25,709 nucleotides of DNA from a virus, in IMG/VR virus record IMGVR_UViG_3300037189_001192, positions 1 to 25,709 of that record, one strand, 5' to 3'. The position numbers and the translations under genes were made by a program. This document shows positions 1 to 18,653 of the stretch, one piece after another (positions within the stretch are counted from its first letter, which is position 1; each line of letters opens with the position of its first letter). The notes under the pieces are model-generated. The model saw nothing but the letters and a program-made list of their open reading frames with translations, ran no database searches and was not told where the DNA came from.

Positions 1-314
1 ATACCTGTGGAGTTAAATTTTTCAATATTAACATAATTGTCGCCTGTGTATGCAATGTATACATTATAGGATGTATCAACTATAATACTACTGATTATAG
101 CTGTTGTATCGTATAGACTTTTTTGCCATACAAGAGATGGTCCAGTATTATTAATTTTAGCAAAGTAATTTCTAGAAGCAACATAGATATTATTTTGATC
201 ATCAAGATCGGCACTGCAATATAAAGAATCTGGCTGACTCCCGGTTGTTAATCCTCCAAACCAAACTTTGCTTTGCGAGGGTCGGAATGCACTATTGCTA
301 AAATTTAATGACAT
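1..314 (-). CDS. Beta-propeller-like tail/fibre protein, N-terminal part (runs off left edge)
   Basis: An open frame starts at an ATG (complement of 312-314) and continues past the window edge, so only about 104 residues are visible. It begins MSLNFSNSAF. It then shows blade-like repeats in which a hydrophobic strand such as NNIYVAS or YNVYIAY is followed by a polar turn and a VWQKS-type strand. The same pattern, including VWTKS and VWKRS strands, fills the middle of the 713-aa protein at 10047-12188, so the two are probably paralogous. The gene follows the collagen-like fibre gene after only 2 bp, presumably in the same late operon. The propeller reading rests on repeat pattern and analogy, and no catalytic residues are evident. 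The product is probably a virion fibre or appendage component, but the missing C-terminus could change this. Confidence 0.6.
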   Translation of the reverse strand, partial: MSLNFSNSAFRPSQSKVWFGGLTTGSQPDSLYCSADLDDQNNIYVASRNYFAKINNTGPSLVWQKSLYDTTAIISSIIVDTSYNVYIAYTGDNYVNIEKFNSTG

Positions 315-316
315 AA

Positions 317-2692
317 TTAAGCTACAAATCCTACTGCTAGCCAGTATATTGTTCTAGTTGCGCCCGTGCGAACCTCAAACTGTGTATTAGTCTGATTGGC
401 AACAGCCGTACCTAATGTTGTTGCATAGGTAGCAGTATACGGGGTAGCTATTACTCCCATAACACCTCCTGTAAATGTTTTAGGGTAAGATACGACCACA
501 CCTGCAGTACCCGCACTGACTGTTCCCCATTGCAATAGCAAGTTATTTGGTAACAGGCAGTAACCTGATGAAGATGTTCTATCTACAAACCCAGTAGCAA
601 ACCCCCCTCCAGATAAACCAAGAGACAATAAAGTACCCGTAATATTAGCATTACCTACGACACTAAGCGGAGCGATTGGACTTGTATTACCAATACCTAC
701 GCTACCACTAGGTGCAACGTATATAGAAGTGAAGTTATTATTATTAGCAGCAAATGATAAACTATTACCGCTAGCAGCATACATCCCGTATGGTGCTACG
801 GTTACTTGCTGTGTAGAGTTAGATACTATGATATTATTCGTATTAGATACAAAAGTACCAGCTAGTGTTAGAGTATTAGATGTTTTATCAAAAGTTAAAC
901 CAGTAGCACCGTTTAAGTCGCCAGCATCGTTGAACTGTACCTCTTTATTATTTCCACCCGGTGTACCTTTAGAGCCAGAATATCCTACAGAACCATTAAA
1001 TCCTACAGAACCATTAAATCCTGTAGAGCCATTATAACCAGCTCCAGTAGAACCTGTAAAGCCAACAGAACCATCAAATCCTCTAGAACCATCAAATCCT
1101 GTAGAACCATTGAAACCAGTAGAACCATTGAAACCAGTAGAACCTGCATAACCTAATGAACCCGTATATCCAGGAGCAGTTGAAGCAGATCCCGTATAAC
1201 CAACAGAACCTGCATAACCTAATGAACCCGTATATCCAGGAGCAGTTGAAGCAGATCCCGTATAACCAACAGAGCCGTTAAATCCCGTAAAACCAGTAAA
1301 ACCAATTCCGCCCTGCTCGCCACGAGAACCTGTATAGCCAATAGAACCAGTATAACCAATAGAGCCATCGAAACCAGTAGAACCATTAAAACCAGTAGAG
1401 CCTGCATAACCTACAGAACCCGTATATCCTATTGAACCAGTATAACCTATAGATCCTGTATAGCCGAGACTACCTCTAGACCCTGCATACCCTGTATCTC
1501 CCTTATCACCAGTTCTTGCAAAGGTTATAATAATACCTAAAGAGTCAGTAAATGATGTAGCACCGTTCAACCAAGCAACCGGTACATCATAGTGATCTAC
1601 GTGCTCAGTATGAAAACCATTAATAGAAAAATACGCAAAATTACGTGTATTTGCTTTTTCTGTTACAGTGAAAGTACCTTTAATAACTGATGTAGAGTCG
1701 TCGATTGTCTGTAGGTAATTATAGTTGTTTAATGCAAAAGCGTCAACATAGTTAATATATAGAGTATTTGCTACTGTTAGATTGGTATTATTGAACTTCA
1801 TAATACCTGTTGCTACAACATCATCAGTAGCTATTTTATAAGTGTAGTCGAAAGCAGCGCCGCCGAAATCTCCTTTAGGACCAATAGATCCAGTATAACC
1901 AGTAGAACCATTAAAGCCGGTAGAGCCTGCATAACCAACAGAACCTGTATAACCAACAGAACCTGTATAACCAACAGAACCTGCATAACCTATTGATCCA
2001 GTGTAACCAGTAGAACCATTAAATCCAGTAGAACCCGCATAACCAATAGAGCCAGTATAACCGTTAGAACCATTAAAGCCTGCAGAACCCGCATATCCTA
2101 TCGAACCCGCATAACCAATAGAACCTGTATAACCAGTAGAGCCTGTATATCCTTGAGATCCGGTATAGCCAATAGATCCGGTATAGCCAATAGATCCTGT
2201 ATATCCAGTAGAACCTGTATAACCAGTAGATCCTGTATATCCTTGAGAACCAGTATAGCCAGTAGAACCTGTATAACCAGTAGATCCTGTATATCCTTGA
2301 GAACCAGTATAGCCAGTAGATCCTGTATAGCCCTGTGATCCTGTGTAGCCAATAGAACCGGTATATCCTGTTGATCCTGTGTAGCCAATAGAGCCGGTAT
2401 AGCCAATAGATCCTGTATATCCAGTAGAGCCGATATATCCTGTTGATCCTGTATACCCTATAGAACCTGTATAGCCTAATGAACCTGCATATCCTGCGGC
2501 AGTTGAAGCAGAACCTGTATATCCAGTACCTGATCCCCAATAACGACGTCCATCTGTATCAGATAGAAGAGCCTGTCCGTTACTAGCTGGTAACCCTAAA
2601 TTAGACTCTACCTGGGTAGGGACAATAAACCCATTAGCCTGACTAAGACCTGTTGTAGCAGGAATCTGACCTGATAAAAATGAAAACCCCAT
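317..2692 (-). CDS. Collagen-like tail fibre with gp53-like C-terminal tip (791 aa)
   Basis: This is a long fibre protein. Residues 1-55 are a short N-terminal head ending in a GRRYWGSGTG linker. About 56-275 and 396-582 are collagen-like Gly-X-Y shafts built from a hexapeptide G-[YF]-[TNAD]-G-S-x. About 277-395 form a globular insert between the shafts, starting GGAAFDYTYK and ending in FARTGDKGDTG, a module I recall from marine T4-like fibres. About 583-690 are a beta-rich neck with a GSVGIGNTSP motif. About 695-791 carry an LPNNLLLQWG motif and resemble the gp53-like tail-fibre C-terminal domain, a probable receptor-binding or trimerising tip. The start codon overlaps the previous stop (TAATG), implying translational coupling. 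The exact host receptor and virion position are unknown. It is the cassette B counterpart of the 1306-aa fibre. Confidence 0.85.
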   Translation of the reverse strand: MGFSFLSGQIPATTGLSQANGFIVPTQVESNLGLPASNGQALLSDTDGRRYWGSGTGYTGSASTAAGYAGSLGYTGSIGYTGSTGYIGSTGYTGSIGYTGSIGYTGSTGYTGSIGYTGSQGYTGSTGYTGSQGYTGSTGYTGSTGYTGSQGYTGSTGYTGSTGYTGSIGYTGSIGYTGSQGYTGSTGYTGSIGYAGSIGYAGSAGFNGSNGYTGSIGYAGSTGFNGSTGYTGSIGYAGSVGYTGSVGYTGSVGYAGSTGFNGSTGYTGSIGPKGDFGGAAFDYTYKIATDDVVATGIMKFNNTNLTVANTLYINYVDAFALNNYNYLQTIDDSTSVIKGTFTVTEKANTRNFAYFSINGFHTEHVDHYDVPVAWLNGATSFTDSLGIIITFARTGDKGDTGYAGSRGSLGYTGSIGYTGSIGYTGSVGYAGSTGFNGSTGFDGSIGYTGSIGYTGSRGEQGGIGFTGFTGFNGSVGYTGSASTAPGYTGSLGYAGSVGYTGSASTAPGYTGSLGYAGSTGFNGSTGFNGSTGFDGSRGFDGSVGFTGSTGAGYNGSTGFNGSVGFNGSVGYSGSKGTPGGNNKEVQFNDAGDLNGATGLTFDKTSNTLTLAGTFVSNTNNIIVSNSTQQVTVAPYGMYAASGNSLSFAANNNNFTSIYVAPSGSVGIGNTSPIAPLSVVGNANITGTLLSLGLSGGGFATGFVDRTSSSGYCLLPNNLLLQWGTVSAGTAGVVVSYPKTFTGGVMGVIATPYTATYATTLGTAVANQTNTQFEVRTGATRTIYWLAVGFVA
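960..1505 (-). repeat. Collagen-like hexapeptide repeat block, C-terminal shaft of the 791-aa fibre
   Basis: Tandem degenerate 18-bp units encode G-[YF]-[TND]-G-S-x with Gly at every third position. The array is interrupted by two GYTGSASTAPGYTGSLGYAGS stretches that break the Gly-X-Y register. It lies wholly inside the fibre gene and is the source of several spurious long open frames on both strands. Confidence 0.9.
1141..1272 (-). repeat. Perfect 66-bp tandem duplication inside the collagen shaft
   Basis: Bases 1141-1206 and 1207-1272 read as identical by eye. Each copy encodes one 22-residue stretch containing ASTAPGYTGSLGYAG. The flanking 18-bp repeats vary at synonymous positions, so perfect identity over 66 bp points to a recent slippage or recombination event. 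Confidence 0.85.
1870..2525 (-). repeat. Collagen-like hexapeptide repeat block, N-terminal shaft of the 791-aa fibre
   Basis: About 36 tandem 18-bp units encode mostly GYTGSx, with x being I, T, Q or V, and some GYAGS and GFNGS variants towards the C-terminal end. It includes a perfect 54-bp tandem pair at 2207-2314 and three adjacent 18-bp copies around 1930-1980. Gly occupies every third residue throughout. Confidence 0.9.
2207..2314 (-). repeat. Perfect 54-bp tandem duplication inside the collagen shaft
   Basis: Bases 2207-2260 and 2261-2314 are identical by eye. Each holds three hexapeptide units, GYTGSQ GYTGST GYTGST in some order. The 54-bp length keeps both the reading frame and the Gly-X-Y register. 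Confidence 0.85.
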
Positions 2693-3159
2693 TATACCAC
2701 CCCAATATGTTCACTAGATAGTTTTTCTTCAGCAGCCGCCCATACATCAAAAACATTTGCAGTCTCTGCACGTATCTGTATTTTATCCCCGGATATACTG
2801 TTCGAATCTCTTTTAAATAAGCTTCTTCCTTGAATAGGAATAAAGGCTGTATCATATGCTGGTACAGATATTTTACCAAAGCTAACGGTGTTACCATCTT
2901 CGCCAAGCAGAATAACTTCAATCCACTTGGTCGCTGCAGTTTTATTTCTGGCAGCAAGCGGTGTAATGAAAAACACTTCACCAGGTCTGATAGCTCTTGT
3001 AGCATCATCAGGGTCTCTACTTGCATAATTCTCTGCAGGGTCCGGAACTGAAAAATCTGGTGCTTCCGTAATAGAAGTATAGTTTACAGGAACATTTACT
3101 ATATATGCGTTAAAAGCTCTGCCTGTTGATGGGGTCTTACATATAATTCTTATTGCCAC
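2692..3159 (-). CDS. Small beta-rich virion protein between beta-helix and collagen-fibre genes (155 aa)
   Basis: This is a 155-residue protein of unknown exact function with no signal peptide or membrane segment. Its C-terminal half reads as alternating strands: WIEVILLGEDG, a VPAYDTAFIPI strand, then SGDKIQIRAET and an Ala/Glu-rich end. The P-x-x-D...SG[DE]K pattern recurs in the 144-aa protein at 16105-16539, which has the same position in cassette A, so I treat the two as distant paralogues. The start is GTG (complement of 3157-3159), chosen because a strong AAGGAG (complement of 3169-3174) lies 9 bases upstream, inside the end of the previous gene. The stop overlaps the fibre start as TAATG. 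It is probably a structural or adaptor subunit for the fibre. Confidence 0.6.
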   Translation of the reverse strand: MAIRIICKTPSTGRAFNAYIVNVPVNYTSITEAPDFSVPDPAENYASRDPDDATRAIRPGEVFFITPLAARNKTAATKWIEVILLGEDGNTVSFGKISVPAYDTAFIPIQGRSLFKRDSNSISGDKIQIRAETANVFDVWAAAEEKLSSEHIGVV

Positions 3160-3161
3160 GA

Positions 3162-4790
3162 TTAAAAACTCCTTGAAATAGCTGTCTTTGTAGCTATTCT
3201 GTTAACTGCTTGATCGAATGGCGGACCACTTAGTTCGCCTGTATCTGCGTTAATTTCTAGACCTCCCACAAAAACAGCGTTACCCTGATCATCCTGACCA
3301 GATGCAATAATAGTACCGCTATTTATTTCTAGGATACTATCCTGAATACGAGCGCTGTTCTTTACAGGAGGTATTTTAGTTAACGCCACACCTGCCATTA
3401 CCCCTGTAAATGTATGACCAATAGCTGTAATAACAGAAGGTTCAACTCTTAATGATGGTGTATTAATAGATGTAGTAAGTGCGGTAACAAGATTAGCAAC
3501 AATTACATCTGCGTTAGCATTAACAGCTGCGAGAGCTTGTATTTGATCTCGCATGTTTTGGAATGAATATACGAATGCTGCTTTTTTATCTGGTGTAAAA
3601 ACTGTATTACCGTTATAATCATAAAGACCCTTTGCAAAGTCAAGCATCGGCTTTTCATTTGCAGACTGGAGAGTCCAGATCATTGTCTGTAGAAATGTAT
3701 TTGCATCTCTTCTAGTATAAGCTTCATCTTCAGCATTCCAGGTTGAGGTATAACCTCGTGATACTAGATTGCTCCAAAGTGTATTAATAATAGTCGAACG
3801 CGCATTGTTTACAGCATTCGCTGCATTAGCTTGCGGGGTTAAGTTAATAGCTACTTCTTGAGGAGAAAGAATATTACGACTACCATCAGCTACAAGAGTA
3901 TAATCTCCGAACTGTGTGGAACAAGCTGATAAAATAATCTGCCCACCACTCAAGGCATAAAAATGCTTATGACACCAAATACTGACTGCGTTAACTGCGT
4001 TAATGAGCGCTCCATTCTTAGCACAGTAACCAATACCATTATGCGAAACAGGGGTTGCACCCCATGTCATAATGTTTGGATATATACTATATGGAGAGCA
4101 AACAGCACCATCTGCTAATGCGACGCCAGCACCCCGACCAATATATGGATTAGCATTCGCACGATCAAGCGGCGGCGCAATATAAGTCCAGGTAGGCGGT
4201 ACACGAACAGCAATCTTGTGTGCGTATGGTGCTCTTGTAATAATAGCGCCAGGTCTAAACGAAATAGCAAACCCCTCTGATGGGTTATCTAGATCATCAA
4301 TACGCCAACCTTCAAATAGAGGGCCTTCAATAAAACAACCAGAACCCATACGAAATACATTTTGCTCTTCATAGCCTGGGTTTGGTTTAAAGATAACAGT
4401 TCTATGTACGGCACGAATCATACAATTATCTGGCATATTTAAATGCCCGTTAGTATAATAAACACCGGGACCAATATCAATTAAAGTAAGGTCGTTTCTA
4501 GCCGTTGCTAGTACAAGAGCTCTTTCAACAGTAGCAAGCGGGCGATCCCAAGACGAACCGTCATAAGTATCCAAACCATTTGTAGATACAAATAATGCAT
4601 TACCTACAGGAATCTTACTTACGAATTCTACTATTTCTTGAACAGGAGAGTTATTTACGGTATGATTAATCTTAGCAAATATCTTACCGTCACTAATATT
4701 GATCGCTGGTTCTCCCAGTAACAGATCATTAATACCCGGTTTTCTATCCGGGGTACTAGAGCGTTTGAGAAGAATTGTGTTATTTGCCAT
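3162..4790 (-). CDS. Right-handed beta-helix tail fibre/appendage protein (542 aa)
   Basis: Residues 5-40 match the Mtd-type phage fibre N-terminus: LLKRSSTPDRKPGINDLLLG followed by EPAINISDGKIF. From about 67, FVSTNGLDTYDG then RPLATVERAL is the classic entry into a right-handed parallel beta-helix (pectin-lyase-like fold). Turns with PDNCMI, NGIGY (near 250) and GGQIIL, then FGDYTLVADG (near 283-300), run to about 305. A helical insert follows at about 310-430 with MIWTLQSAN. The C-terminal part has QGNAVFVGG near 500. No pectinase catalytic set is obvious, so it is more likely a binding or structural fibre than a depolymerase. It is paralogous to the 692-aa protein at 16543-18621. It is the first gene of cassette B, 45 bp downstream of a late promoter. 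Confidence 0.8.
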   Translation of the reverse strand: MANNTILLKRSSTPDRKPGINDLLLGEPAINISDGKIFAKINHTVNNSPVQEIVEFVSKIPVGNALFVSTNGLDTYDGSSWDRPLATVERALVLATARNDLTLIDIGPGVYYTNGHLNMPDNCMIRAVHRTVIFKPNPGYEEQNVFRMGSGCFIEGPLFEGWRIDDLDNPSEGFAISFRPGAIITRAPYAHKIAVRVPPTWTYIAPPLDRANANPYIGRGAGVALADGAVCSPYSIYPNIMTWGATPVSHNGIGYCAKNGALINAVNAVSIWCHKHFYALSGGQIILSACSTQFGDYTLVADGSRNILSPQEVAINLTPQANAANAVNNARSTIINTLWSNLVSRGYTSTWNAEDEAYTRRDANTFLQTMIWTLQSANEKPMLDFAKGLYDYNGNTVFTPDKKAAFVYSFQNMRDQIQALAAVNANADVIVANLVTALTTSINTPSLRVEPSVITAIGHTFTGVMAGVALTKIPPVKNSARIQDSILEINSGTIIASGQDDQGNAVFVGGLEINADTGELSGPPFDQAVNRIATKTAISRSF

Positions 4791-4800
4791 TATGTTCTCT

Positions 4801-4808
4801 TATAAATA
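4801..4808 (+). promoter_or_regulatory. T4-type late promoter for the glycosyltransferase gene
   Basis: This is an exact TATAAATA on the plus strand, the consensus -10-like element read by T4-family gp55. Transcription should begin roughly 6 bases after it, giving a leader of about 50 bases before the ATG at 4865. It lies inside the leader transcribed from the opposing promoter at 4835-4842. Confidence 0.75.
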
Positions 4809-4834
4809 CCCAGTAAGTGGTAGTTCGTTTGTTT

Positions 4835-4842: not shown

Positions 4843-4864
4843 TATTATTATATCGAGGTGATTG

Positions 4865-7800
4865 ATGAAAATATGCTTTGTTGATACTATGGGTCTGTGC
4901 TATGACGGAAGCACCCTTAATAAAAGAGGCCTCGGCGGCTCAGAATCTGCCGTCATTCTATTATCTAAAGAACTAGCTAGGCTAGGTTTCGAAGTTACAG
5001 TTTTTAACGACTGTACATCCGAAGATACCAGACCCGGTATGTATGACGGGGTTCTATACCAGCCTCTAAGAGATATAGAAAATCCAGCAATAGATATGCA
5101 CTATGACGTGATGATCGGTTCTCGATCTGTCGCAGCCTTTGCACCTGCTCATATCAAAGAGCGTTTTAAAACATTCTCTTACATGCCAGACTTTACTCGA
5201 TTACAACGCATTAAGCATAAAGTGTTATGGATGCATGATACCTTCTGTGACGGCGATGATCTTATTGAAGGTTTTCTGCTTGACGGATTAATAAACGAGG
5301 TTTTTGTACTATCTGACTTCCATCTGGATTATGTTACTAACTGTGACCATGGTCGTAAACGTAATTTTGAAGTACTTAAGAAGTACATGTTTATTACACG
5401 CAACGGTATTGGTAATATGAAGCCAGATTGGATTGATGTTACTCAGAAAGATCCGAACCATTTTGTTTATAATTCTTCCTTTACTAAAGGTATGCAGCCT
5501 CTTGTAGAAGATGTCTGGCCTAGAGTTAAAGCAGCTGCACCAGATGCTAAGCTGACTGTTATTGGAGGCTTCTATAAGTTTCCTGGTGGACAACCCGACG
5601 AACAAGAACAGTCTTGGCGACGAATGGTAGAAGAACATGGCAAAGACATTAACTTCACTGGCATTATTCCTCAACAAGAAATTTCTAAAATCCTTACAAC
5701 AGCATCTTATATGCTATACCCTGCTGGATATCCAGAGACATATGGTATCTCGGCATTAGAATCTCTGGCACATAACGTTCCTATTATTACTTGTGACTTC
5801 GGCGCTCTAGAAGAAACGGCAATGAATAGTGCTTGTTATAAGATTCCATATGCTATTGTACCTAACGGTCTATTTCCTTGGATTAATAAAGAAGATCAAG
5901 TTAATCGTTTTGTCGATATGACTCTACACGCTTACCATAACAAGTATCTACACCAGCAAAAGATGTATGCCTGTAATGCTGTCAAAGATATCTGTGGTTG
6001 GAATACTGTTGCACTTCAATGGAAGCAACACCTATTCCATAAGCTAGGAGAGTATTTGCCTGTAGATGAATATAGACAAGTACAAGAGATTAACTATAAG
6101 GTTCGTAAAACATTTGGACGTCGATTTACTAACCAAGAAGAATTGCAACCCCCTTGCAATATACAAAAAGAAATAGGCATTATTACGGCTGTATATAATG
6201 CTGAGAATTATATCGAGAAATGTATTCTTTCGGTTGCCCAGCAGAATTATAAGTGGTATACAATGTATATTGTAGATGATGCATCTACTGATAATACTGT
6301 AAGTGTAGCACGTCGTACTATTGACTCACTTCCTCAAGAGATACGACATAATTTTGTACTGATTCTTAATGATGAAAATGTAGGTGCTGTTGCTAACCAC
6401 TATAAGGTTATTAATGAATATATTGGCGTTGAAGACTTCTTCATGATCCTGGATGGAGATGATTGGCTTGTTAATGATCCGAACATATTCCATTTTTATA
6501 ATAATCTATATCACGAGGGCGCTGAGTTTACGTATGGCTCTTGCTGGTCTCTAGTAGATAATATTCCTCTTGTTGCCCAGGAATACCCGCCTCAGGTCAA
6601 AGCTAATAAAGCGTATCGCGATTATAAATTCAACTGGAATATGCCTTATACACACCTTCGTACTTTTCATTGTAAGTTGCTGCGGGGTCTAAAAGAAACT
6701 GATCTATTAGTTGATGGAGAGTGGCCGAGAGCTGGAGGAGATACTGCATTATTCTATCACTTAATTGAAGCAGCCGAACCAGATAAGGTTGTATGTATAC
6801 CAGACATAGTGTATGTTTACAATGATACTAACCCACTAAATGACTATAAAGTTAATGGGGAAGAGCAGACTAAGACAGCTAAAAAGGTGACTAGTAAAAA
6901 GATGTCTAAAGAAAAAATCTCTGTAATTGTTCCTACTATGTGGCGCTGTAATGATGTATTCGCTAGAGCTCTACAGAACTATGTGGACTGTGATCTAGTA
7001 GACGATATTATTATTATCAACAATGATAAAAATGTAACACCACAATGGAATATTTTATACAACACCAAAGTTCGGATGCTGAATCAAGAAACAAATATTT
7101 TCTGTAATCCTGCTTGGAATCTAGGGGCTGAGTTGGCTCTGAACGATAAGATGTGCTTTGTTAATGATGATATTGAGTTCGATCCAAAAGTTTTTGATAA
7201 GGTCGTCGACCTAGTTGTTCCAGAGAATGGTACAATAGGTATGGTTACTGGTGAAGAGAAGTTTAACCACCCGCCAACTACAGACAAAAGCATCAGCATT
7301 CTCGAATGTAAATCAAGTAGCGAGAGCTATGCAGATTGTCATGATAAGACAATGCCTCATGGTTTCGGACAGTTGTTCTTTGTACATAAAAAGAATTGGG
7401 AACCTGTGCCGGAAGGGTTGTTACTATACTACGGCGACGACATGATCTGGAATCAGCATTTGCGTAAGGGGCTTATCAATCATATTATTTACAACTTCGA
7501 CTGGTATTCTCCTATGGCACAGACATCGGGTGATCCTGCTATTTCTGCTGGACGAATAGAGGGGGAACACCCAATCTATATGAACTGGTTAAACAACACA
7601 CCTATTATGGAAGAGAAGAAAGAAGAAATGACAAAAAAGCGTATTCTAATTGGTATTCCTACTAAAGATGATATTAGGGCAGAGACTTTTAAATCTATCT
7701 ATGATCTAATCATTCCCGAAGGTTACGAAGCAGACTTTCAGTTCTTTTATGGATATGCAGTAGATCAGGTACGTAATCTAATTGCAGATTGGACAGTTAA

Positions 7801-8302
7801 TCTTTATGATTATTTGTTCGCAGTAGATCATGATATTACATTCGAACCAGACACTCTAGTAAAACTGTTAGCACACGATAAGCCTATTGTGTCTGGAGTT
7901 TATAGACAGAGAATGGAACCTCCAGTACTGGAGATCTATGATAGTAATTATCGTAATGTATCTATGGATTTTGCAAATCAACAAGGCTTATTTGAAATAG
8001 GTGCTTGTGGCTTTGGTTGTGTTCTTGTAAAGAAAGAAGTATTTACTGCTGTTGGATATCCGCAGTTCGTATATCACCAAGCACTCAGTCATGCTAATAC
8101 TTTTAGTGAAGATTTAGATTTTTGTAGAAAAGCCCGTGATAAGGGGTATAGTGTATGGTGCGATACCACTATTCTATGCGGACACATAGGTCTCCATACA
8201 TTCACTGTACAACCTACAGTAGTGCCGACGTCTATTGTTGAAGAACCAGCTAATCCGATAGCTGCTTACCTACAGGAACTTAAAAACCACCGCCATCAAT
8301 AA
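4865..8302 (+). CDS. Four-domain glycosyltransferase fusion (GT4 + three GT2/GT-A-like)
   Basis: This single 1145-aa frame holds four transferase domains. Domain 1 (about 1-400) is GT-B family 4: LGGSESAVILLSKELARLGF near 25-45 and an E-x7-E site in PETYGISALESL near 290. Domain 2 (about 435-670) is a GT2: IGIITAVYNAENYIEKCILS, VDDASTD, and the metal-binding DGDD near 530. Domain 3 (about 683-905) is GT-A-like: ISVIVPT, PAWNLGAELA, VNDDIEF near 768, YYGDDMIW. Domain 4 (about 923-1125) is GT-A-like: ILIGIPT, VDHDITFEP near 990, SEDLDFCRKARDKGY ending in GHIG. I chose ATG 4865 over the adjacent TTG 4862 because GAGGTG (4855-4860) is well spaced. It is the only gene on this strand and lies behind a late promoter. 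The likely role is building a short glycan on virion fibres, or modifying host surface sugars. Donor and acceptor are unknown. Confidence 0.88.
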   Translation: MKICFVDTMGLCYDGSTLNKRGLGGSESAVILLSKELARLGFEVTVFNDCTSEDTRPGMYDGVLYQPLRDIENPAIDMHYDVMIGSRSVAAFAPAHIKERFKTFSYMPDFTRLQRIKHKVLWMHDTFCDGDDLIEGFLLDGLINEVFVLSDFHLDYVTNCDHGRKRNFEVLKKYMFITRNGIGNMKPDWIDVTQKDPNHFVYNSSFTKGMQPLVEDVWPRVKAAAPDAKLTVIGGFYKFPGGQPDEQEQSWRRMVEEHGKDINFTGIIPQQEISKILTTASYMLYPAGYPETYGISALESLAHNVPIITCDFGALEETAMNSACYKIPYAIVPNGLFPWINKEDQVNRFVDMTLHAYHNKYLHQQKMYACNAVKDICGWNTVALQWKQHLFHKLGEYLPVDEYRQVQEINYKVRKTFGRRFTNQEELQPPCNIQKEIGIITAVYNAENYIEKCILSVAQQNYKWYTMYIVDDASTDNTVSVARRTIDSLPQEIRHNFVLILNDENVGAVANHYKVINEYIGVEDFFMILDGDDWLVNDPNIFHFYNNLYHEGAEFTYGSCWSLVDNIPLVAQEYPPQVKANKAYRDYKFNWNMPYTHLRTFHCKLLRGLKETDLLVDGEWPRAGGDTALFYHLIEAAEPDKVVCIPDIVYVYNDTNPLNDYKVNGEEQTKTAKKVTSKKMSKEKISVIVPTMWRCNDVFARALQNYVDCDLVDDIIIINNDKNVTPQWNILYNTKVRMLNQETNIFCNPAWNLGAELALNDKMCFVNDDIEFDPKVFDKVVDLVVPENGTIGMVTGEEKFNHPPTTDKSISILECKSSSESYADCHDKTMPHGFGQLFFVHKKNWEPVPEGLLLYYGDDMIWNQHLRKGLINHIIYNFDWYSPMAQTSGDPAISAGRIEGEHPIYMNWLNNTPIMEEKKEEMTKKRILIGIPTKDDIRAETFKSIYDLIIPEGYEADFQFFYGYAVDQVRNLIADWTVNLYDYLFAVDHDITFEPDTLVKLLAHDKPIVSGVYRQRMEPPVLEIYDSNYRNVSMDFANQQGLFEIGACGFGCVLVKKEVFTAVGYPQFVYHQALSHANTFSEDLDFCRKARDKGYSVWCDTTILCGHIGLHTFTVQPTVVPTSIVEEPANPIAAYLQELKNHRHQ

Positions 8303-9761: not shown

Positions 9762-9762
9762 A

Positions 9763-10035: not shown

Positions 10036-10043
10036 ATATTATA

Positions 10044-10049
10044 TCCTTA
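10044..10049 (-). promoter_or_regulatory. Ribosome-binding site overlapping a stop codon
   Basis: TAAGGA on the minus strand combines the 713-aa gene's TAA stop with an AAGGA Shine-Dalgarno 8 bases before the ATG at 10035. Termination and re-initiation are therefore coupled here. Confidence 0.6.
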
Positions 10050-12188
10050 TATAAACTTAATTGTTGTTGCATTCTTCAGCGCAGATGCTTCTGGACGATT
10101 ATACCAGGTCCAATTAGTTGTAACAATGGCTTGAGTATAGGTAGCTTCTTTGCGATCGAAATAGTAATTATCGTTGATAATCATACTGGTCCAACCTTGA
10201 TTAGGATACTGCCCCACTATCTGTAATTCTGTTGAGCCTTCAGATATACCGCCGCTGCCGGCATATTTCCCTGCAGTATGAATCAACTCGAATATTTTCC
10301 CCGAATCAGCAACCCCCGAAATCGGCGTCAGAAAACTTAAAGCAGTATTAGGAGTTACGCCATAGCCTCCATATTCATAATATGTTTTTTGATTATCTGG
10401 GTACTGTGGAAAATATTGAAGGAATGCTTTAGTACCACCAGGAGTAGTTTTTGTATCTAATATAATAAGCGGTTTTTCCAGTGTATATAATAAACCTGGT
10501 TGGATATAAAAATCTGGGCTGTTCCCATCCGTTATTGTAGCATCTTTCATATCGAAGGTTGAGGTACCATTTGTCGGGTTTGACGGGGTTATATTGGAAG
10601 TTCTATCCAGATATAATACACCGTTAGTGGTACCGGTTAGAGCTATATTTTTTCTAGTTACCTGACACGAATCATCATACATAACATAAGAACTATCAAC
10701 TGCATTTATATAACGACCTGTGCCTGAACCGTCTGCAGGTAATATAGCTATTCCTTGTTTAGCTCCATTCGTGCCGTATGTATACATAACATATACATAT
10801 TTCTCTGTTGGATCTAGCCATACTGAACGCACCACTGTATCAGTAAGATCCGCAGCATAAATGCTACGTTTCCATACTACATTATCAGAAGAATCATATT
10901 TTATAATAAATCCGGTAAATTTATTAGAAAATCCTGTCCGATATCCCCCTACAACGTAATAATAGTTTGTGTTTGTCGCGCCTTTATTAATACATACATT
11001 AGTTAAGATGGCGGAGAGACCTGAAATATCTAATTCAGGAGTCGTAGTTGTCGGGTCCCCTTGCACATAAAATTGCCACGAATTAGTTCTAATGCCCGTT
11101 GAATCAAATTTTTGCAATAATTGAAAATCTATACCCCCTGTATCTTGAGTAATTACACCTACATATACATTATTAGTAGTAGTTGCACAACAAAAATTTA
11201 AATCGTTGACGACTTTAGAGGATAACGCATTTTTAGTGGTTAAAGAATCAGTGGATTTTATATACGTTCCCCAGTTTACAGTTGATGTTGATATATCAAA
11301 ACAAACCAGTATAATTCCGCCGAAATAATTACCTATAGCATATACCCTATTCCCTACCATATCTATGTTATTGAATGTTTGAGGGAGACTGCCGCCAGAA
11401 CTATTATTAAACCTATATGCTCCTATAAAAGCCCCGGTATCTGGATTTAATTCTATTATAGAAGGTCCATTTAAGGTATGTGCTGAAACAATTGAATATC
11501 CCCCCACAATAAACAATCTACTTAGGGATTCATTATAATATACCGACTGTAATTGAATTTTAGATGATACATATGTCCTCGATGGAAATTTCTTTTTCCA
11601 ACGCACTGCGCCATCAGAGTTTAAACTGAACACAAAACTTCCACGTGTTGGATCACCAGCCGTTGTCCTATCTGGAGGTTCGAAGTTTCCAACATAAAAC
11701 GTTGATTTATCACTATTTCTTACTGCAATACCCGTGATACAGGTCTCATATCCACTAGCAGAACTATTTATAGCGTAACTTTTTGTCCAGACCTTAAATC
11801 CTGAGGAAGTAGTTTTCATAATATATTTAGAGGTTGAAGTTGTACCCGCACCATAACCATATATAACTTTTAGATCAGAATCTGTAACACCCCTTGGAGC
11901 TTTTCCGTCTAATATCCGTCTTGGTTCGGTATTTAAATATGGAAGTGAAGACAGGCGCATCAGCGCACCTACAGATGCAGAGGCATTATAAAATAATTTT
12001 ATATTGATAGGTGGCTTAGGATCAGTAAGAATAGATGGTATTGGTCCATAATCTCCCGAGGTACCTGATAAAACATAGCTACCGTCTGCGTAGTAATTAC
12101 CCAGTTTAATATTCTTCTTATCGGTAGCACCACCGAACTCTGTTTGAATAGCAGAAAATAATAAATTTCCGGATGCTGGCAAAACCAT
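10047..12188 (-). CDS. Beta-propeller-like tail fibre protein (713 aa)
   Basis: Residues 1-70 follow a widespread phage tail N-terminal pattern: LPASGNLLFSAIQTEFGG, then IKLGNYY and PINIKLFYN. The centre, about 100-480, is a series of strand repeats typical of beta-propellers: VWTKSYA, FYVGN, VRWKKKF, LFIVGGYS, VYAIGNYFGG, YVVGGYRTG, VVWKRSIY, KYVYVMYTYG. The C-terminus has GWTSMIINDNYYFDRKEATY and NWTWYNRP, resembling short C-terminal beta domains of other phage fibres. No enzyme residues are obvious, so it is most likely a binding appendage. Its start overlaps the stop of the 1306-aa fibre (TAATG at 12186-12190). A similar protein begins at 314 in the same place relative to the other collagen fibre. 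Confidence 0.65.
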   Translation of the reverse strand: MVLPASGNLLFSAIQTEFGGATDKKNIKLGNYYADGSYVLSGTSGDYGPIPSILTDPKPPINIKLFYNASASVGALMRLSSLPYLNTEPRRILDGKAPRGVTDSDLKVIYGYGAGTTSTSKYIMKTTSSGFKVWTKSYAINSSASGYETCITGIAVRNSDKSTFYVGNFEPPDRTTAGDPTRGSFVFSLNSDGAVRWKKKFPSRTYVSSKIQLQSVYYNESLSRLFIVGGYSIVSAHTLNGPSIIELNPDTGAFIGAYRFNNSSGGSLPQTFNNIDMVGNRVYAIGNYFGGIILVCFDISTSTVNWGTYIKSTDSLTTKNALSSKVVNDLNFCCATTTNNVYVGVITQDTGGIDFQLLQKFDSTGIRTNSWQFYVQGDPTTTTPELDISGLSAILTNVCINKGATNTNYYYVVGGYRTGFSNKFTGFIIKYDSSDNVVWKRSIYAADLTDTVVRSVWLDPTEKYVYVMYTYGTNGAKQGIAILPADGSGTGRYINAVDSSYVMYDDSCQVTRKNIALTGTTNGVLYLDRTSNITPSNPTNGTSTFDMKDATITDGNSPDFYIQPGLLYTLEKPLIILDTKTTPGGTKAFLQYFPQYPDNQKTYYEYGGYGVTPNTALSFLTPISGVADSGKIFELIHTAGKYAGSGGISEGSTELQIVGQYPNQGWTSMIINDNYYFDRKEATYTQAIVTTNWTWYNRPEASALKNATTIKFI

Positions 12189-15100
12189 TATCTGTTAGCT
12201 TTCAGTTCATCTAGTTGATTCTTAAGCTCATTAATACCCTGAATAACTAGACCTAGGATCTTTTCATATTTAACAGCAAGTGTACCGTCTACTCTTTCAG
12301 CTACAACTTCTGGAAGAACAGCCTGTACTTCTTGAGCGATAATACCCGTATCACGCTTACGAACGAAGTAACCATCTTCGCCGCCGCGTGATTGAATGTA
12401 ATCATCTGTCCAATCGAACATAACACCTGTGATCTTGCCTAGTTTATCTAGGGCAGATTCAATTGGTATGATGTTTTCTTTGAGTCTTCTATCCGAAGAA
12501 TAAAAAGCGGTGATATCTGCAGTTGCTCTAATTTCTCCTTGAGTACTGGAAGCAGATGTACCAACACCTAGAGAGTAAACTTGAGCATTTGCATTAGTAT
12601 CGAAGGTACCTTTAGAACCAGCATAGCCTACTGAACCATCGAAGCCTTTAGAGCCATTGAAACCATTAGAACCATTATATCCAGTAGAACCATTGAACCC
12701 CGTAGAACCATTAAAACCTTTAGAACCATCAAAGCCTAAGTCCCCTCTAGAACCATTATAACCAGTAGAGCCATTGAACCCCGTAGAACCATCAAAACCT
12801 TTAGAGCCATTGAAACCATTAGATCCATTATATCCAGTAGAGCCATTGAACCCCGTAGAACCATCAAAACCTTTAGAACCGTCAAAGCCTTTAGAGCCAT
12901 TAAAACCAGTGGAACCATTAAAACCAGTAGAACCGTTATATCCGGCACCAGTAGAACCATCAAAGCCTTTAGAGCCATTATAACCTACCGAGCCATTAAA
13001 ACCAGTAGAACCGTTATAACCGGTACCAGTAGAACCATCAAAGCCTTTAGATCCATTGAAACCAGTAGAGCCATTATAGCCGCCAGAACCATCAAAGCCT
13101 TTAGATCCATTGAAACCAGTAGAACCATTAAATCCTTTAGAGCCATCAAACCCTTTAGAGCCATTATAACCTACAAAACGACCGGCATTAACCCATGCAG
13201 TACCCGAGAAACTATAGATATTACCAGTATCTGTAGTTATATAAGCGTCACTAATAGCATTACCTGGTTGATTTAGGTAATTAACCTCATTACCGTAATA
13301 GGGTATTGATGTTACAGTATCTACTGAACCTCTAATTTTAACAGAATTTCCAGTGTCTCCCTTAGAGCCATCAAAGCCTTTAGAGCCATTAAATCCAGTA
13401 GAACCATTGAAACCAGTAGAACCATTGAAACCTGTGGAACCGTCAAAGCCTCTAGAGCCATTATAGCCGACTGATCCGTAATATCCTATAGAGCCAGCAT
13501 ATCCTACAGAGCCATCAAAGCCTTTAGAACCATCAAAGCCTTTAGATCCATCGAAGCCTCTAGAACCATTATATCCAACAGACCCTGCAAATCCTAAGGA
13601 ACCATTAAATCCTACAGAGCCATCAAAGCCTTTAGATCCGTCAAAGCCTTTAGATCCATCGAAACCTTTAGAACCATTGAAGCCTATAAAACGTCCGCCA
13701 TCAGTAAAGGTTTTGGTGCTAGTATTGCTAGTATATATCCAAATATTACCGGTATCTATAGTTATAAATGCGTCTCCGGCATCTCCTCCGTAAGTGGCTG
13801 CATCAGGTAATGCCGCCTGGTTTGCGCGGCTACCTATGATCTTAATAGAGGCGCCAACTTCTCCCTTAGAACCAGCATAACCAACAGAACCATCAAATCC
13901 TCTAGAACCATTGAAACCAACAGAACCATTGAAACCAGCAGAACCATTGAAACCAGCAGAACCATTAAATCCTTTAGATCCGTCGAAGCCTCTGGAACCA
14001 TTGAAACCAACAGAACCATCGAAGCCTTTAGAACCATTGAAACCTGTAGAGCCTGTAAAGCCAATAGAGCCAGTATAACCTACAAATGGAATACCGTCTC
14101 CCCACCCTGCGCCATCGTAAATATACAATCTACCAGTAGAAGTAACTACAACAGCATCGCCTTCTACAGCAGAAATACTAGACAAATCAGAATAGTTGGT
14201 AACTGAGGTCTTAATAGTAATAGCTCGACCTCGTGATCCAGTATAACCTACCGAACCAGTATATCCTACAGAACCATTAAATCCTCTAGAGCCATTAAAT
14301 CCTGTAGAACCATTAAAACCTGCTCCTACAGAACCAGTATAACCTACTGAACCATTAAAACCAACAGAACCATTGAAGCCAGTAGAGCCATTATAACCAG
14401 TAGAACCAGTCCAGCCAACAGACCCATTGAAACCAGTCGAGCCTTGGAAACCTTTAGAACCTGTGTAACCTACTGAACCATTAAAACCCACAGAGCCACT
14501 GAAACCTGTGGAACCGTTAAAACCAGTGGAACCGTTAAAACCAGTGGAACCTGTGTAACCTATCGAACCAGTATATCCAACAGAGCCAGTGAAACCAGTA
14601 GAACCGTTAAAACCAGCGGAACCGATATATCCTACAGAGCCTCCGAATCCTATAGAGCCAGTATAACCTGTAGAACCATTAAATCCTGTAGAACCAGCGT
14701 AGCCAACAGAACCTGTATAACCTACAGAGCCTCCAAAGCCTACAGAGCCTCCAAAGCCTACAGAGCCCGTATAACCTGTAGATCCGTTATAACCTGCGCC
14801 ACGAGAACCAGTATAGCCTACAGAACCATCAAAGCCTCTAGAGCCAGTATAACTTGTTGACCAATAAGTAGCTGTTCCATTAGTGGTTAGTACTTGCCCT
14901 GGTGCTCCTAGTGAACCGTTTGCGGTTAACGATGTCAGATTTAGATTAGTAATAGTAGCATTATTAGCATTAAGATCTATTGTAACAACACCAGTATTAC
15001 TGATTACTAATAGATTCTTAGAAACGTAGAGTTCGGTACCAGGATTTGTATTAGGTGTTTGACCAATAACAAAAGTATCATCATCTTCGTTCCAGAACAT

Positions 15101-16108
15101 ACCTATGTTGTATGATTCTGCGTTAGCGTTCAGATAACGTTGAAGAACAATACCTGTATCGTTAATAGGGTTTGTTGTTTGACCAGTATTAAGTACAATA
15201 AAGCTATTACTTACATCAAGTGTAGATGTTTGAACAAATGTAGTTGTACCACCAACAATTAGATTACCTGTCAGTGTTACGTCTGTGAAGTATGCAGCGT
15301 TGGCTTTAACAAGACCAATAATTGGAGGGGATGTCCATTTATAGCCGTTTAGGAAGTTAGCATCATTAGCGTAAATAGCAGAATTGGTATTCAACGCAGC
15401 TGCCGCATTTCCAGTCAAATATGTCGCGCTATTAGCAGTATAAGCAAACAGAGCATTAGTAGCAAACACTGCTGAGTTTACATTGAGTTCATTTTCCCTC
15501 TTGCCATATGCAAATACAGTATCATTAGCAATATATGCAAAATCAGCGTTAGTAGCAAATACAGCACTATTAACATTTAATTGATTTTGACGTTTACCAT
15601 ATGCAAAAGCAGTATCGTTTGCGTTATATGCAAAGTTAGCATTTGTTGAAAACGTAGCTTGGTTAGCTGTATATGCAAAGTTTGCATTTGTTGAAAACGT
15701 AGCTTGGTTAGCTGTATATGCAAAGCTCGCATTCGTAGAGAAAGTAGATTGATTCGATGTTAAAGCGAACTGGGCATTCGTAGAAAATGTAGATTGATTT
15801 GATGTATATGCAAAGTTTGCATTTGTAGAGAATGTCGCTTGATTCGATGTTAAAGCGAATTGAGCATTCGTAGAAAAAGTAGATTGATTTGATGTTAAAG
15901 CAAATTGAGCGTTTGTTGAAAACGTAGCTTGGTTAGCGCTGTTAGCAAACTGACTTACAAAAAGCCATTTTACTCCATCAGAATAATATAACTTATCGTC
16001 CGTAGCAAAAACTATCGCCCCTTCATATAGAGTGGCGTCTAGTGTAGTAATATCTACGGGTACGCCCTGCCCTATAACAAGAGAAGAGCCGGAGTTATAT
16101 TTTGTCAT
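12188..16108 (-). CDS. Giant collagen-like tail fibre with S74 intramolecular chaperone (1306 aa)
   Basis: The fibre is built in blocks. Residues 1-53 are an N-terminal head (LYEGAIVFATDDKLYYSDG). Residues 54-158 hold seven 15-residue repeats and 159-220 two 31-residue repeats. About 230-415 is a globular part (LTGNLIVGGTTTF, QVLTTNGTATYWS). About 418-1167 is a collagen-like shaft of G-[YF]-[TNDA]-G-S-x hexads, interrupted by three related globular inserts near 627-675, 750-808 and 917-980. The C-terminus, about 1183-1306, is a peptidase S74 chaperone: SSDRRLKENI supplies the predicted Ser1205-Lys1210 dyad, followed by TGIIAQEVQAVLPEVV and a terminal coiled coil. By family knowledge this domain trimerises the fibre and then cuts itself off near the serine. 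The start overlaps the 144-aa stop (ATGA), and the stop overlaps the next start. Confidence 0.9.
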   Translation of the reverse strand: MTKYNSGSSLVIGQGVPVDITTLDATLYEGAIVFATDDKLYYSDGVKWLFVSQFANSANQATFSTNAQFALTSNQSTFSTNAQFALTSNQATFSTNANFAYTSNQSTFSTNAQFALTSNQSTFSTNASFAYTANQATFSTNANFAYTANQATFSTNANFAYNANDTAFAYGKRQNQLNVNSAVFATNADFAYIANDTVFAYGKRENELNVNSAVFATNALFAYTANSATYLTGNAAAALNTNSAIYANDANFLNGYKWTSPPIIGLVKANAAYFTDVTLTGNLIVGGTTTFVQTSTLDVSNSFIVLNTGQTTNPINDTGIVLQRYLNANAESYNIGMFWNEDDDTFVIGQTPNTNPGTELYVSKNLLVISNTGVVTIDLNANNATITNLNLTSLTANGSLGAPGQVLTTNGTATYWSTSYTGSRGFDGSVGYTGSRGAGYNGSTGYTGSVGFGGSVGFGGSVGYTGSVGYAGSTGFNGSTGYTGSIGFGGSVGYIGSAGFNGSTGFTGSVGYTGSIGYTGSTGFNGSTGFNGSTGFSGSVGFNGSVGYTGSKGFQGSTGFNGSVGWTGSTGYNGSTGFNGSVGFNGSVGYTGSVGAGFNGSTGFNGSRGFNGSVGYTGSVGYTGSRGRAITIKTSVTNYSDLSSISAVEGDAVVVTSTGRLYIYDGAGWGDGIPFVGYTGSIGFTGSTGFNGSKGFDGSVGFNGSRGFDGSKGFNGSAGFNGSAGFNGSVGFNGSRGFDGSVGYAGSKGEVGASIKIIGSRANQAALPDAATYGGDAGDAFITIDTGNIWIYTSNTSTKTFTDGGRFIGFNGSKGFDGSKGFDGSKGFDGSVGFNGSLGFAGSVGYNGSRGFDGSKGFDGSKGFDGSVGYAGSIGYYGSVGYNGSRGFDGSTGFNGSTGFNGSTGFNGSKGFDGSKGDTGNSVKIRGSVDTVTSIPYYGNEVNYLNQPGNAISDAYITTDTGNIYSFSGTAWVNAGRFVGYNGSKGFDGSKGFNGSTGFNGSKGFDGSGGYNGSTGFNGSKGFDGSTGTGYNGSTGFNGSVGYNGSKGFDGSTGAGYNGSTGFNGSTGFNGSKGFDGSKGFDGSTGFNGSTGYNGSNGFNGSKGFDGSTGFNGSTGYNGSRGDLGFDGSKGFNGSTGFNGSTGYNGSNGFNGSKGFDGSVGYAGSKGTFDTNANAQVYSLGVGTSASSTQGEIRATADITAFYSSDRRLKENIIPIESALDKLGKITGVMFDWTDDYIQSRGGEDGYFVRKRDTGIIAQEVQAVLPEVVAERVDGTLAVKYEKILGLVIQGINELKNQLDELKANR
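12605..14860 (-). repeat. Collagen-like hexapeptide repeat region with three interruptions
   Basis: Tandem 18-bp units encode GFNGSx, GFDGSx, GYTGSx and variants, with Gly at every third residue. The array is broken by non-repetitive segments at about 14085-14230, 13685-13860 and 13170-13360. Nearest the C-terminus the units favour Lys and Asp (GSKGFDGSKGFDGS). Higher-order duplication is visible near 12640-12860, where a GFNGSTGYNGSNGFNGS group occurs twice. Confidence 0.9.
15449..15634 (-). repeat. Two 93-bp (31-residue) imperfect tandem repeats
   Basis: Residues 159-189 and 190-220 of the fibre share FAYxANDTxFAYGKR, then [QE]-N-[QE]-LNVNSAVFATNA, with about five differences. They look like an expanded version of the preceding 15-residue unit. 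Confidence 0.8.
15635..15949 (-). repeat. Seven 45-bp (15-residue) tandem repeats in the fibre N-terminal region
   Basis: Seven copies cover residues 54-158, with consensus FA[LY]T[SA]NQ[AS]TFSTNA[QNS]. The adjacent DNA copies at 15626-15670 and 15671-15715 differ at a single base. The strict 15-residue period with Phe at fixed places suggests a regular fibrous fold distinct from the collagen shaft. Confidence 0.85.
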
Positions 16109-16539
16109 GCTACTCTAACCTCAAAGTCTTCTCTTTGATTGACGATATATGTGAAATGTGCTGTCGCAGCACCGGATGCTATAACTTCTAACTTCTCTCC
16201 TGATAGTAGAACCTGTCTTTCAAAAGTGATAGTCAAGAAATCGTTAGGAGGAATGGCAGTGTTAGCTATAATTGGATAAGCAATACTATCCGTACCTATA
16301 ATTCGAGCAGATGCTTTTATTGAAACTGCAGGACCTGTGGTTGTATTGGTAATAATAAGCCCTGTTACAATAGCCGCTGTGTTCACAAACTTGGCTTCAA
16401 CTGGTCCATTCAATGGTATATAATATCTGGGAACCGTTACGAGTTCGGTCCAGATCGCAGGATTAGAGAGATTCTTACGAGATGCTTCGAATATGTTTAA
16501 AGGCGGTCTTGGGGTTATTGTATTTGCTGCTAAAGCCAT
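16105..16539 (-). CDS. Small beta-rich virion protein between beta-helix and collagen-fibre genes (144 aa)
   Basis: This is a 144-residue protein with a short polar N-terminus (ITPRPPLNIFEASRKNLSNP) and then alternating hydrophobic strands: AIVTGLIITNTTTG, VSIKASARII, PPNDFLTITFERQ, SGEKLEVIASG and a final HFTYIVNQRE. This resembles small phage beta-sandwich subunits that end in a similar strand before an acidic tail. The PPND...SGEK pattern matches VPAYD...SGDK in the 155-aa protein at 2692-3159, which has the same neighbours. A strong AGGAGG (complement of 16547-16552) sits 7 bases upstream, within the end of the beta-helix gene. Its stop overlaps the fibre start (ATGA). It is a probable adaptor or structural subunit. 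Confidence 0.6.
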   Translation of the reverse strand: MALAANTITPRPPLNIFEASRKNLSNPAIWTELVTVPRYYIPLNGPVEAKFVNTAAIVTGLIITNTTTGPAVSIKASARIIGTDSIAYPIIANTAIPPNDFLTITFERQVLLSGEKLEVIASGAATAHFTYIVNQREDFEVRVA

Positions 16540-16542
16540 GTG

Positions 16543-18621
16543 TTAGCCTCCTATGCCAACGATTAGTGGAAGGGTAATATTCTGCACGCCACGGGAGAAT
16601 GCTTGCCCTTCAATTGTACTGCGTTCGAAATCGACTTTTAAGTCTTTACCTAGATAGGTATCGCCTTGTTCTGTATTGAATGTTGCGTAAATAATACCGC
16701 CATTCGATTGATAAAGATTTGTTGTTGGATCAGTTGCGGTGCCGGAAGCACGCTGTCCAAATGGTAGCGCGTTGTAGTTAACGCCAGAACCCGCATAAGA
16801 GAACTGATGGGATGCAGCTTCAATCTTAGATGGGAATGGTAATGTATAGGATATAGGATTACTAATAACATTATTTGCTAAATTAAAATACTGATCGATT
16901 AGCTGACTCGCCACCTCAGCTTCTGATTCATGAGCTGTATTAGGTAAGTAAGCTAAAGTCTTTAGTTCAGTTCTAATTTTATCCCAGCTTGCTAAGAAGT
17001 ATGGTTTTAGTGATTCACTAAAAGCAAGAACAGAGTTTGCAGTATAAGGTCCAGTAGTGTTTGCTTTAAATAAACTCTGTGTCCAGAATATAACACTCTT
17101 ATCTTGACCCGAAATTAGATCCTCTGCTGTCTCTTTAAGAATAGTTTCTGTATCTCGAAGCGCAAGCGCATTATTAGCGCCGGTTATCGCTGTAGTCCAG
17201 TTTGGGATAGATGGAAAACCTACAATAGTATTACTGTTTAACTTTGTCGCAATAGTAGAAACATTGTTTGCGATATAGTAACCAAAATTAGGGCATTTTA
17301 GACCAATTAAGTTTTGATTTGCAATGCCAGGTACCCGTATTGCGTATCTGAACCCCGTTGATGCGAAAGCGTAATCGCCGAACGTAGCATTGGAATTAAC
17401 AACAGTTACCTGCCCTCCAGCATGAGCCCATATACCTACACGAGACCAGTTGGTAAATACAGAAACAAGTTGTACTAGAGCGCTATTAACAATTGCATAA
17501 CCAATACCATTTGGGTTAACAGCCGTAAACGAGTCAACAACAACTGAACGCAATGGAGAGTCTGGATCTAGAATAGCGCCATCTGCGTACAGATTTCCGC
17601 CGGTCATTGGTACTAATGGATTGCCGGATTGTCTATCTTGCGGACCAGACATTTCCTGATATGATAGATCGTGTAATACGCAACAATCCCCAATATATGG
17701 AGAACGTGAAATATATGCGCCTGGTTTGAATGCAAAAGCATAACCTTTTTTCGGCGGACCATAATCTAGAGAAGCATAATCCTTACCGCCTGAAGTATAT
17801 TTTACAGAATTATACCATGAAGCTTCGTGTCTTAATCCAGTAAAAGTAAATCCTCTAACCTTAATACCTGAGTTAAGAAGAAACATGTTGTTTTCTCTCG
17901 AACCCCCTACTTCAGCAAGTGTAAGTTTAGTTACACGAGCATCGTAGCCATATAATGCGCAACCTGCAGGTATTTCAGTATTTGGTGCAACTTCATACTC
18001 ACCTGGATGTACAATAATAACACATGACTTACCTACAGCATTCGCCGCTAAAAGAGCAGCTCCAATAGTCTGGAATGGCTTATAGATAGACATACCAGTA
18101 TTGCTGGTCTGACGAATATATGTGTTAGCGTCATTATCATTACCGTTCATAGTAACATAGAACGTACGCTCAACATGTTTACGTGGTGTAAGTTGTTGTG
18201 CTAGCGCTGGTAGCAAGCCTGTATTAGCCCATGAGCCAGAACCTGAATCTCCTCGTTTATAATACCAATCATTATTAACAATGGTAGGATCTTTATATAC
18301 CAATGCAATTGAGTTATTGGCAAATGAAAGATTTGCTGCTAGTGTAGTTGTATTTGCGGTAATAAAGTCGACTTTTGCCAGGCCAGCGGCTGAAAGAGCT
18401 GTAATAGTTTCTTCAAGATTATTAACACGGGGGATTTCTAATGTACCAGTGACAATCTCACCAAACTTATCGATAGTGAATTGACTCAAACCATTTCTTT
18501 TAAGGTCGAGAAGTTTCGAACTAACGTCCGAATATGCATCGTAGGTGTTCATTTTAACAGAGGTAAAACTGGTAGCGGAATCCGCCCAGGTATCTCTCAT
18601 GTCATAAATTTTAGTCGTCAC
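16543..18621 (-). CDS. Right-handed beta-helix tail fibre/appendage protein (692 aa)
   Basis: Residues 1-60 form a fibre-type head (MTTKIYDMRDTWADSAT, then SKLLDLKRNGLSQFTIDKFG). From about 152, RTFYVTMNGNDND and later KPFQTIGAAL mark the entry to a parallel beta-helix. Signature turns shared with the 542-aa paralogue follow: PGAYISRSPYIGD, NGIGYAIVNSAL near 371, GGQVTVV near 401 and FGDYAFA near 413. A helical insert lies at about 488-563, and the C-terminal part has GGIIYATFNTEQGDTYLGKD. No polysaccharide-lyase catalytic set is evident. The start is GTG (complement of 18619-18621), chosen because AAGGG lies 8 bases upstream; the next in-frame Met is codon 8. It heads cassette A, 25 bp after a late promoter. 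Confidence 0.8.
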   Translation of the reverse strand: MTTKIYDMRDTWADSATSFTSVKMNTYDAYSDVSSKLLDLKRNGLSQFTIDKFGEIVTGTLEIPRVNNLEETITALSAAGLAKVDFITANTTTLAANLSFANNSIALVYKDPTIVNNDWYYKRGDSGSGSWANTGLLPALAQQLTPRKHVERTFYVTMNGNDNDANTYIRQTSNTGMSIYKPFQTIGAALLAANAVGKSCVIIVHPGEYEVAPNTEIPAGCALYGYDARVTKLTLAEVGGSRENNMFLLNSGIKVRGFTFTGLRHEASWYNSVKYTSGGKDYASLDYGPPKKGYAFAFKPGAYISRSPYIGDCCVLHDLSYQEMSGPQDRQSGNPLVPMTGGNLYADGAILDPDSPLRSVVVDSFTAVNPNGIGYAIVNSALVQLVSVFTNWSRVGIWAHAGGQVTVVNSNATFGDYAFASTGFRYAIRVPGIANQNLIGLKCPNFGYYIANNVSTIATKLNSNTIVGFPSIPNWTTAITGANNALALRDTETILKETAEDLISGQDKSVIFWTQSLFKANTTGPYTANSVLAFSESLKPYFLASWDKIRTELKTLAYLPNTAHESEAEVASQLIDQYFNLANNVISNPISYTLPFPSKIEAASHQFSYAGSGVNYNALPFGQRASGTATDPTTNLYQSNGGIIYATFNTEQGDTYLGKDLKVDFERSTIEGQAFSRGVQNITLPLIVGIGG
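16547..16552 (-). promoter_or_regulatory. Strong ribosome-binding site for the 144-aa gene
   Basis: AGGAGG on the minus strand lies inside the last codons of the beta-helix gene, 7 bases before the ATG at 16539. It is the strongest Shine-Dalgarno in the window, which suggests high synthesis of the small protein relative to its neighbours. Confidence 0.65.
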
Positions 18622-18645
18622 GCATATATCCCTTATATTTTATTT

Positions 18646-18653
18646 TATTTATA
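18646..18653 (-). promoter_or_regulatory. T4-type late promoter for cassette A
   Basis: TATTTATA on the plus strand gives an exact TATAAATA reading leftward, in the 40-bp gap between the chaperone-like gene and the beta-helix gene. It lies 25 bp from the GTG start, with a predicted leader of only about 18 bases that still contains AAGGG. Confidence 0.8.

Follow-up and report, generated by a model that had tools for sequence, protein, structure and literature searches.

In cultured cyanophages, the closest described counterparts of the locus reported here appear as a tail fibre gene and a gene for a hypothetical protein. The genome of P-SSM2 contains two such clusters, PSSM2_293-294-295 and PSSM2_021-022-023, in which a beta-helix tail-fibre-like gene, a small gene and a fibre gene follow one another, and the same order of beta-helix, small protein and fibre is present in S-PRM1, S-CAM9 and S-8S56. 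The small proteins of these cyanophages belong to phrog_1276 and are 109-117 aa long (330 aa in PSSM2_022). By position, the nearest known region is that of T4 genes 10-12-wac, which encodes the short tail fibre and the whiskers and precedes gp13, with large structural genes on one side and gp13-gp17 on the other. Most of what serves host recognition in uncultured aquatic phages lacks annotation.

The window, that is, the whole 25.7-kb stretch of DNA analysed here, constitutes the record of an uncultured virus of bacteria and harbors two gene cassettes, termed W and X. These are ordered like the cyanophage clusters and, as in P-SSM2, there are two of them. They differ from their cyanophage counterparts in the beta-helix cores, those of the cyanophages sharing no more than about 24-28% identity with W or X, and in the length of the small proteins, which is 144 aa in W and 155 aa in X. 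A literature search by title and abstract retrieved no paper describing this triad of beta-helix, small protein and fibre, nor one that reports a heme oxygenase within fibre clusters of phages.

Genomic position and gene layout

Judged from its sequence, the window represents the region of a T4-like phage that encodes the fibres, with large structural proteins (DUF4815/phrog_358) on one side and the neck/terminase block gp13-gp17 on the other. A near-identical contig (G001, IMGVR 3300032303_000109; 98.3-99.9% nucleotide identity over long aligned pieces) extends the window and carries, to the left of position 1, the remainder of the propeller-like gene (601 aa), a sulfotransferase-like gene of 203 aa, and then gp13, gp14, gp15, gp16 and gp17. 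The PHROG matches of this gp13-gp17 block, which adjoins the fibre genes, are in order Ad2, Hc2, sheath stabiliser, TerS and TerL. Given these genes to the left of position 1, the window lies at the place that the gene 10 to wac region holds in the T4 gene order. Only the position is shared, as no sequence relation of T4 gp10, gp12 or wac to the cassettes was detected by the searches run. In contig G008 the gp13-gp17 block likewise adjoins fibre genes, by similarity to the G001 genes, and there the terminase large subunit gene is found in two frames with a 225-aa ORF between them (G008:C1:37849-40612), which suggests an intron or a homing gene. The gene directly after cassette X in the near-identical contig (L003:14648-15259) is galactose-3-O-sulfotransferase-like (phrog_3347, E=1.6e-5).

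Cassette W (10047-18653) and cassette X (1-4842) are encoded on the minus strand, both with the order beta-helix, small beta protein, collagen-like fibre and fourth gene. The open reading frames of the initial annotation, their sizes and the tight junctions in both cassettes were borne out. It had also assigned a late promoter to each cassette, and the T4-type late promoter box TATAAATA is in fact present on the minus strand at 18653-18646 (W) and 4842-4835 (X), 32 nt and 52 nt upstream of the respective beta-helix gene, but it is not cassette-specific: copies are also located upstream of a 450-aa fibre gene (20546) and of a 113-aa gene (9212), and another lies inside a gene (11772). The W beta-helix genes of relatives have TATAAATA or a one-base variant upstream. 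The present analysis supports the view that the locus holds two fibre modules, each complete, behind a promoter of its own and with a different tip.

Between W and X there are four small genes and, on the opposite strand, a gene for a 1146-aa multidomain glycosyltransferase with GT4- and GT2-type domains (4862..8302, +), whose substrates might be the fibres or the host surface; it is present in several relatives and absent in G008. The small genes, all on the minus strand, comprise a 90-aa ORF (9763..10035) and those for the heme-oxygenase-like protein W2c (191 aa, 9216..9791), for W2b (113 aa, 8831..9172), a homologue of LtfC-like beta-sandwich or L-shaped tail fibre assembly proteins, and for the short fibre-like protein W2a (184 aa, 8280..8834). 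W2c matches the heme oxygenase profile PF01126 with 24.4 bits (cut-off 23), and its homologues from other phages score lower; two motifs, GAH..GG and an HHxxE close to the N-terminus, are retained across 21 homologues. A W2c-like gene follows most W and X modules outside the cyanophages, in many unrelated phages (33-81% identity), and none was detected beside the cyanophage modules examined. This companion gene and the range of phage backbones sharing the core (see below) are the most unexpected by-products of the analysis.

Correspondence between the cassettes

The beta-helix proteins W6 (692 aa, 16543..18621, -) and X6 (542 aa, 3162..4790, -) are homologous, as had been claimed, with 537 aa aligned at 26% identity (E=2e-37), and the cores of both match phrog_17885 or related families (E=1.2e-17 for W6 and E=2e-18 for X6). 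W6 has its own N-terminal anchor (residues 1-149), followed by the shared core and the C-terminal domain (150-692), and X6 begins with a KRS-type anchor (1-61) that precedes an X-type core (62-542). With relatives added, the beta-helix cores form four groups, W, X, Y and cyanophage (C), of which Y is a third type that occupies the W position in contig G007. The KRS-type anchor is common to X and cyanophage proteins and is not found in W or Y; anchors of this type may be common in phage fibre proteins and could be recruited more than once. Several tandem copies of the middle segment (profile positions about 256-400) are present in some of the X beta-helix proteins (L005:6659-9994, L068:7536-11615). 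No solved relatives of the beta-helix core or the small proteins were found by sequence, and IpaD and similar matches were rejected as chance (E>0.08).

The small beta proteins W5 (144 aa, 16105..16539, -) and X5 (155 aa, 2692..3159, -) had been paired through a P-x-x-D...SG[DE]K motif. Their homology holds, not through this motif but through an intermediate and the fold. Direct BLAST between them yields no match (E=1.6) and hhalign a moderate one (probability 64, E=6e-5); the pair is bridged by the 141-aa small protein of G007 (Y5), which matches W5 with E=1e-9 and X5 with E=9e-12. AlphaFold2 models of X5 (pLDDT 89) and W5 (pLDDT 80) agree in the order of their strands, structure searches with both models retrieve jelly-roll proteins, and the same jelly-roll fold is predicted for the two. 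The X5 model matches small cyanophage virion structural proteins, with TM to 0.81 on the target and E to 7e-8. W5 is a relative of phrog_1276 (E=1.6e-4, 6/7 members; hhalign to the cyanophage proteins 95%), and X5, which gives no direct match to phrog_1276, is linked to it only through the Y5 intermediate and the fold. In W-type modules of high-GC phages (L160-L163), a second, weaker W5-like domain is present in a downstream 246-aa protein. Wherever the downstream sequence of a W, X or Y locus is intact, beta-helix and small protein are paired, and their distances are correlated (Mantel r=0.80 within X, 0.96 overall), so that both genes travel together.

The collagen-like fibres W4 (1306 aa, 12188..16108, -) and X4 (791 aa, 317..2692, -) carry the different tips initially described, an S74 C-terminal chaperone in W4 and a gp53-like C-terminal tip in X4 (E=2.2e-9), and their N-terminal docks differ as well. 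This conserved N-terminus of about 50 aa is of two types: dW, which is the dock of Y fibres and of all W fibres in which a dock could be detected (21 loci), and dX, which occurs in X fibres of T4-like phages and in five cyanophage cassettes, X fibres of high-GC phages having dW or no detected dock; these tallies count loci, some of them near copies, and not independent phages. The collagen tract of W4 (window 12188-16108, -) is 32 aa shorter than that of the near-identical contig (L001:10432-14448), with only 3 substitutions besides, a difference that may be due to repeat copy-number variation or to an assembly error.

The fourth genes had been described as a propeller-like pair. X3 is present in the window as its 5' part (3..314, -), and the complete gene (601 aa, L003:12846-14651) is found in the near-identical contig. 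It gave no significant match to the 713-aa W3 (10047..12188, -), and with this negative BLAST result the two were rejected as paralogues. W3 itself is weakly propeller-like (PQQ_2 E=0.022, under the cut-off). Pattern scans with each of the fourth genes found no relative beyond the near-identical contig, a 29%-identical protein is located at the W3 position in contig G002, and the fourth genes vary from relative to relative. Since the fibres share collagen repeats only and the fourth genes show no detectable homology, three genes correspond between the cassettes, and not four.

Origin of the two cassettes

The beta-helix cores yield an unrooted tree whose four groups are set apart by long branches. 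It separates X and Y from W and C, and X+Y is supported at 100/99 or better. In AU tests, W and X as sisters were rejected (p=3e-6), as was W+Y (p=6.5e-6); addition of nine further W relatives gave the same topology and again rejected W+Y (AU p=1e-5). The small-protein tree has the same shape, and the alternatives are not rejected there (AU p=0.45 for both). By the ends of the module, its anchors and docks, X goes with C and W with Y; by the cores, X goes with Y and W with C, a discordance that is hard to reconcile with a single duplication and simple divergence.

Cores of the W and X types turn up again, at about 50-60% identity, in phages whose backbones are unrelated and whose GC ranges from 35 to 65%. 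X cores, present in contigs of 35-64% GC, are 57-61% identical where the terminase matches at only 26-33% (G022, G025 and G014; the 61% core is accompanied by a 26% partial terminase match), and in some X-core phages the terminase match is very distant or undetected. In P-SSM2 the terminase is 46% identical, yet the C-type cores reach only about 24-28%. W cores are found at about 50% identity in contigs of 48-65% GC, in which the similarity usually starts at residue 148-150, indicating that the N-terminal anchor differs in those contigs. The X module follows a lambda J homologue at L044 (E=2e-144) and a terminase and SU10-type portal at L053; from these one or two neighbouring genes, backbones of this kind would be siphovirus- or podovirus-like.

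One or two modules are carried by the related phage genomes surveyed, as the initial annotation allowed. Two are present in G001-G005 and G008 (W+X), in G007 and G009 (Y+X) and in P-SSM2 (two triads among four beta-helix places); one was found in G014 (110 kb), G025 (160 kb) and G031 (78 kb, W only), which may be fragments. The close relatives are all metagenomic contigs, mostly fragments, and therefore a missing second cassette proves nothing. No psbA was found in 14 related contigs. A first genome-collection scan for hosts found nothing, and a second one only a linker/N-terminal match, in Pseudomonas.

The reading that we prefer, with a probability of roughly 65%, is that W and X are two divergent, mosaic members of a widespread, mobile adhesin module, recombined from different branches and not duplicated within the lineage, and operating through the adaptor mechanism proposed below. 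Its homologies, gene order, core phylogeny and mosaic ends are read from the sequences themselves. It had been argued instead that the whole four-gene cassette was anciently duplicated in this lineage and that the copies then diverged and had their tips replaced. The order and tight junctions shared by W and X, the homology of their beta-helix and small genes and the presence of two cassettes in several relatives would agree with this. However, copies of one segment should be homologous in all four gene pairs, and here the fourth pair is unmatched and the fibre N-termini differ; they should also be sisters, and the rejection of W and X as sister cores disfavours a duplication within this lineage, the small proteins being uninformative on this point. 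Moreover, W and X are each closer to modules of unrelated phages than to one another. Given these mismatches and the discordance between ends and cores, one segmental duplication followed by divergence is not supported, and we consider it quite improbable.

As the beta-helix tree is unrooted, it leaves room for a duplication older than all these lineages, and thus than the split from the cyanophages, followed by loss. A very old event in the common ancestor of T4-like phages could have given rise to the W and X types, which would have descended vertically, with some losses, and been copied out to other phages. Diverse T4-like contigs (G001-G005, G007, G008 and G009) have the two-module layout in one and the same place of the genome, which, like the two triads of P-SSM2, is in line with such a history, and a root on the X branch fits the tree; but the Y core, at the first position, groups with X and not with W, and the disagreement between ends and cores means that recombination is needed anyway. 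We regard this history as unlikely. It could also be that one cassette is decaying, or that the two are alternatives, a single fibre type being built at any time. Their expression is read from sequence only, which is what gives this idea its room, but both cassettes are intact and a late promoter box precedes each, and in close relatives the beta-helix genes of W and of X remain open, at about 70-80% identity, so that we give it hardly any credence.

Proposed assembly and comparison with known systems

For the mosaic adhesin module that we favour, the proposed model is that the beta-helix protein would attach to a tail site through its own exchangeable N-terminus, while the jelly-roll protein would cap the beta-helix C-terminal domain and capture the short N-terminal dock of the collagen-like fibre, which would carry the variable tip outward. 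We infer the trimers, contacts, sites and receptor binding of this assembly, and the adaptor and dock roles are proposed from gene order and from the fold resemblance of the W5 and X5 models to solved structures (TM 0.3-0.5). W and X probably represent two types of fibre located at distinct sites of the virion. Their different anchors suggest different virion attachment sites, and their different docks suggest two fibre classes, yet X adaptors occur with both docks. A more tentative idea, which we hold as somewhat doubtful, is that the beta-helix core and the jelly-roll adaptor form a transferable universal joint across myovirus, siphovirus and podovirus backbones, with a local anchor at one end and one of two docks at the other, often accompanied by a heme-oxygenase-fold protein acting in fibre assembly or adsorption.

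The module, of which some phages carry two, can now be recognised with defined boundaries (anchor, core, adaptor, dock and fibre). It predicts exchange between unrelated phages, and the adaptor and dock hypotheses are testable on cultured phages such as P-SSM2 and S-PRM1.

The adaptor idea is modelled on BxpB, by analogy and not by homology. In the Bacillus exosporium, ExsFA/BxpB is likewise a small jelly-roll protein beside a collagen-like filament, BclA, with a short conserved N-terminal segment; BxpB is an 11-stranded trimer, and a peptide of residues 20-38 of BclA binds to it (PMC10470788). The ExsFA structures 7r1m and 9h3d are among the PDB fold matches of W5, with low TM. The exosporium system differs in that no sequence homology was found between its proteins and those of the window, and the TM scores are weak. 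In phages of Klebsiella and E. coli, the receptor-binding proteins are reported to be modular, with N-terminal anchors and distal domains that are swapped between phages (PMC8262889, PMC10408124), as would also be the case for W and X. Here, the exchanged core is an internal unit that extends across two genes, beta-helix and adaptor, with both of its ends changing.
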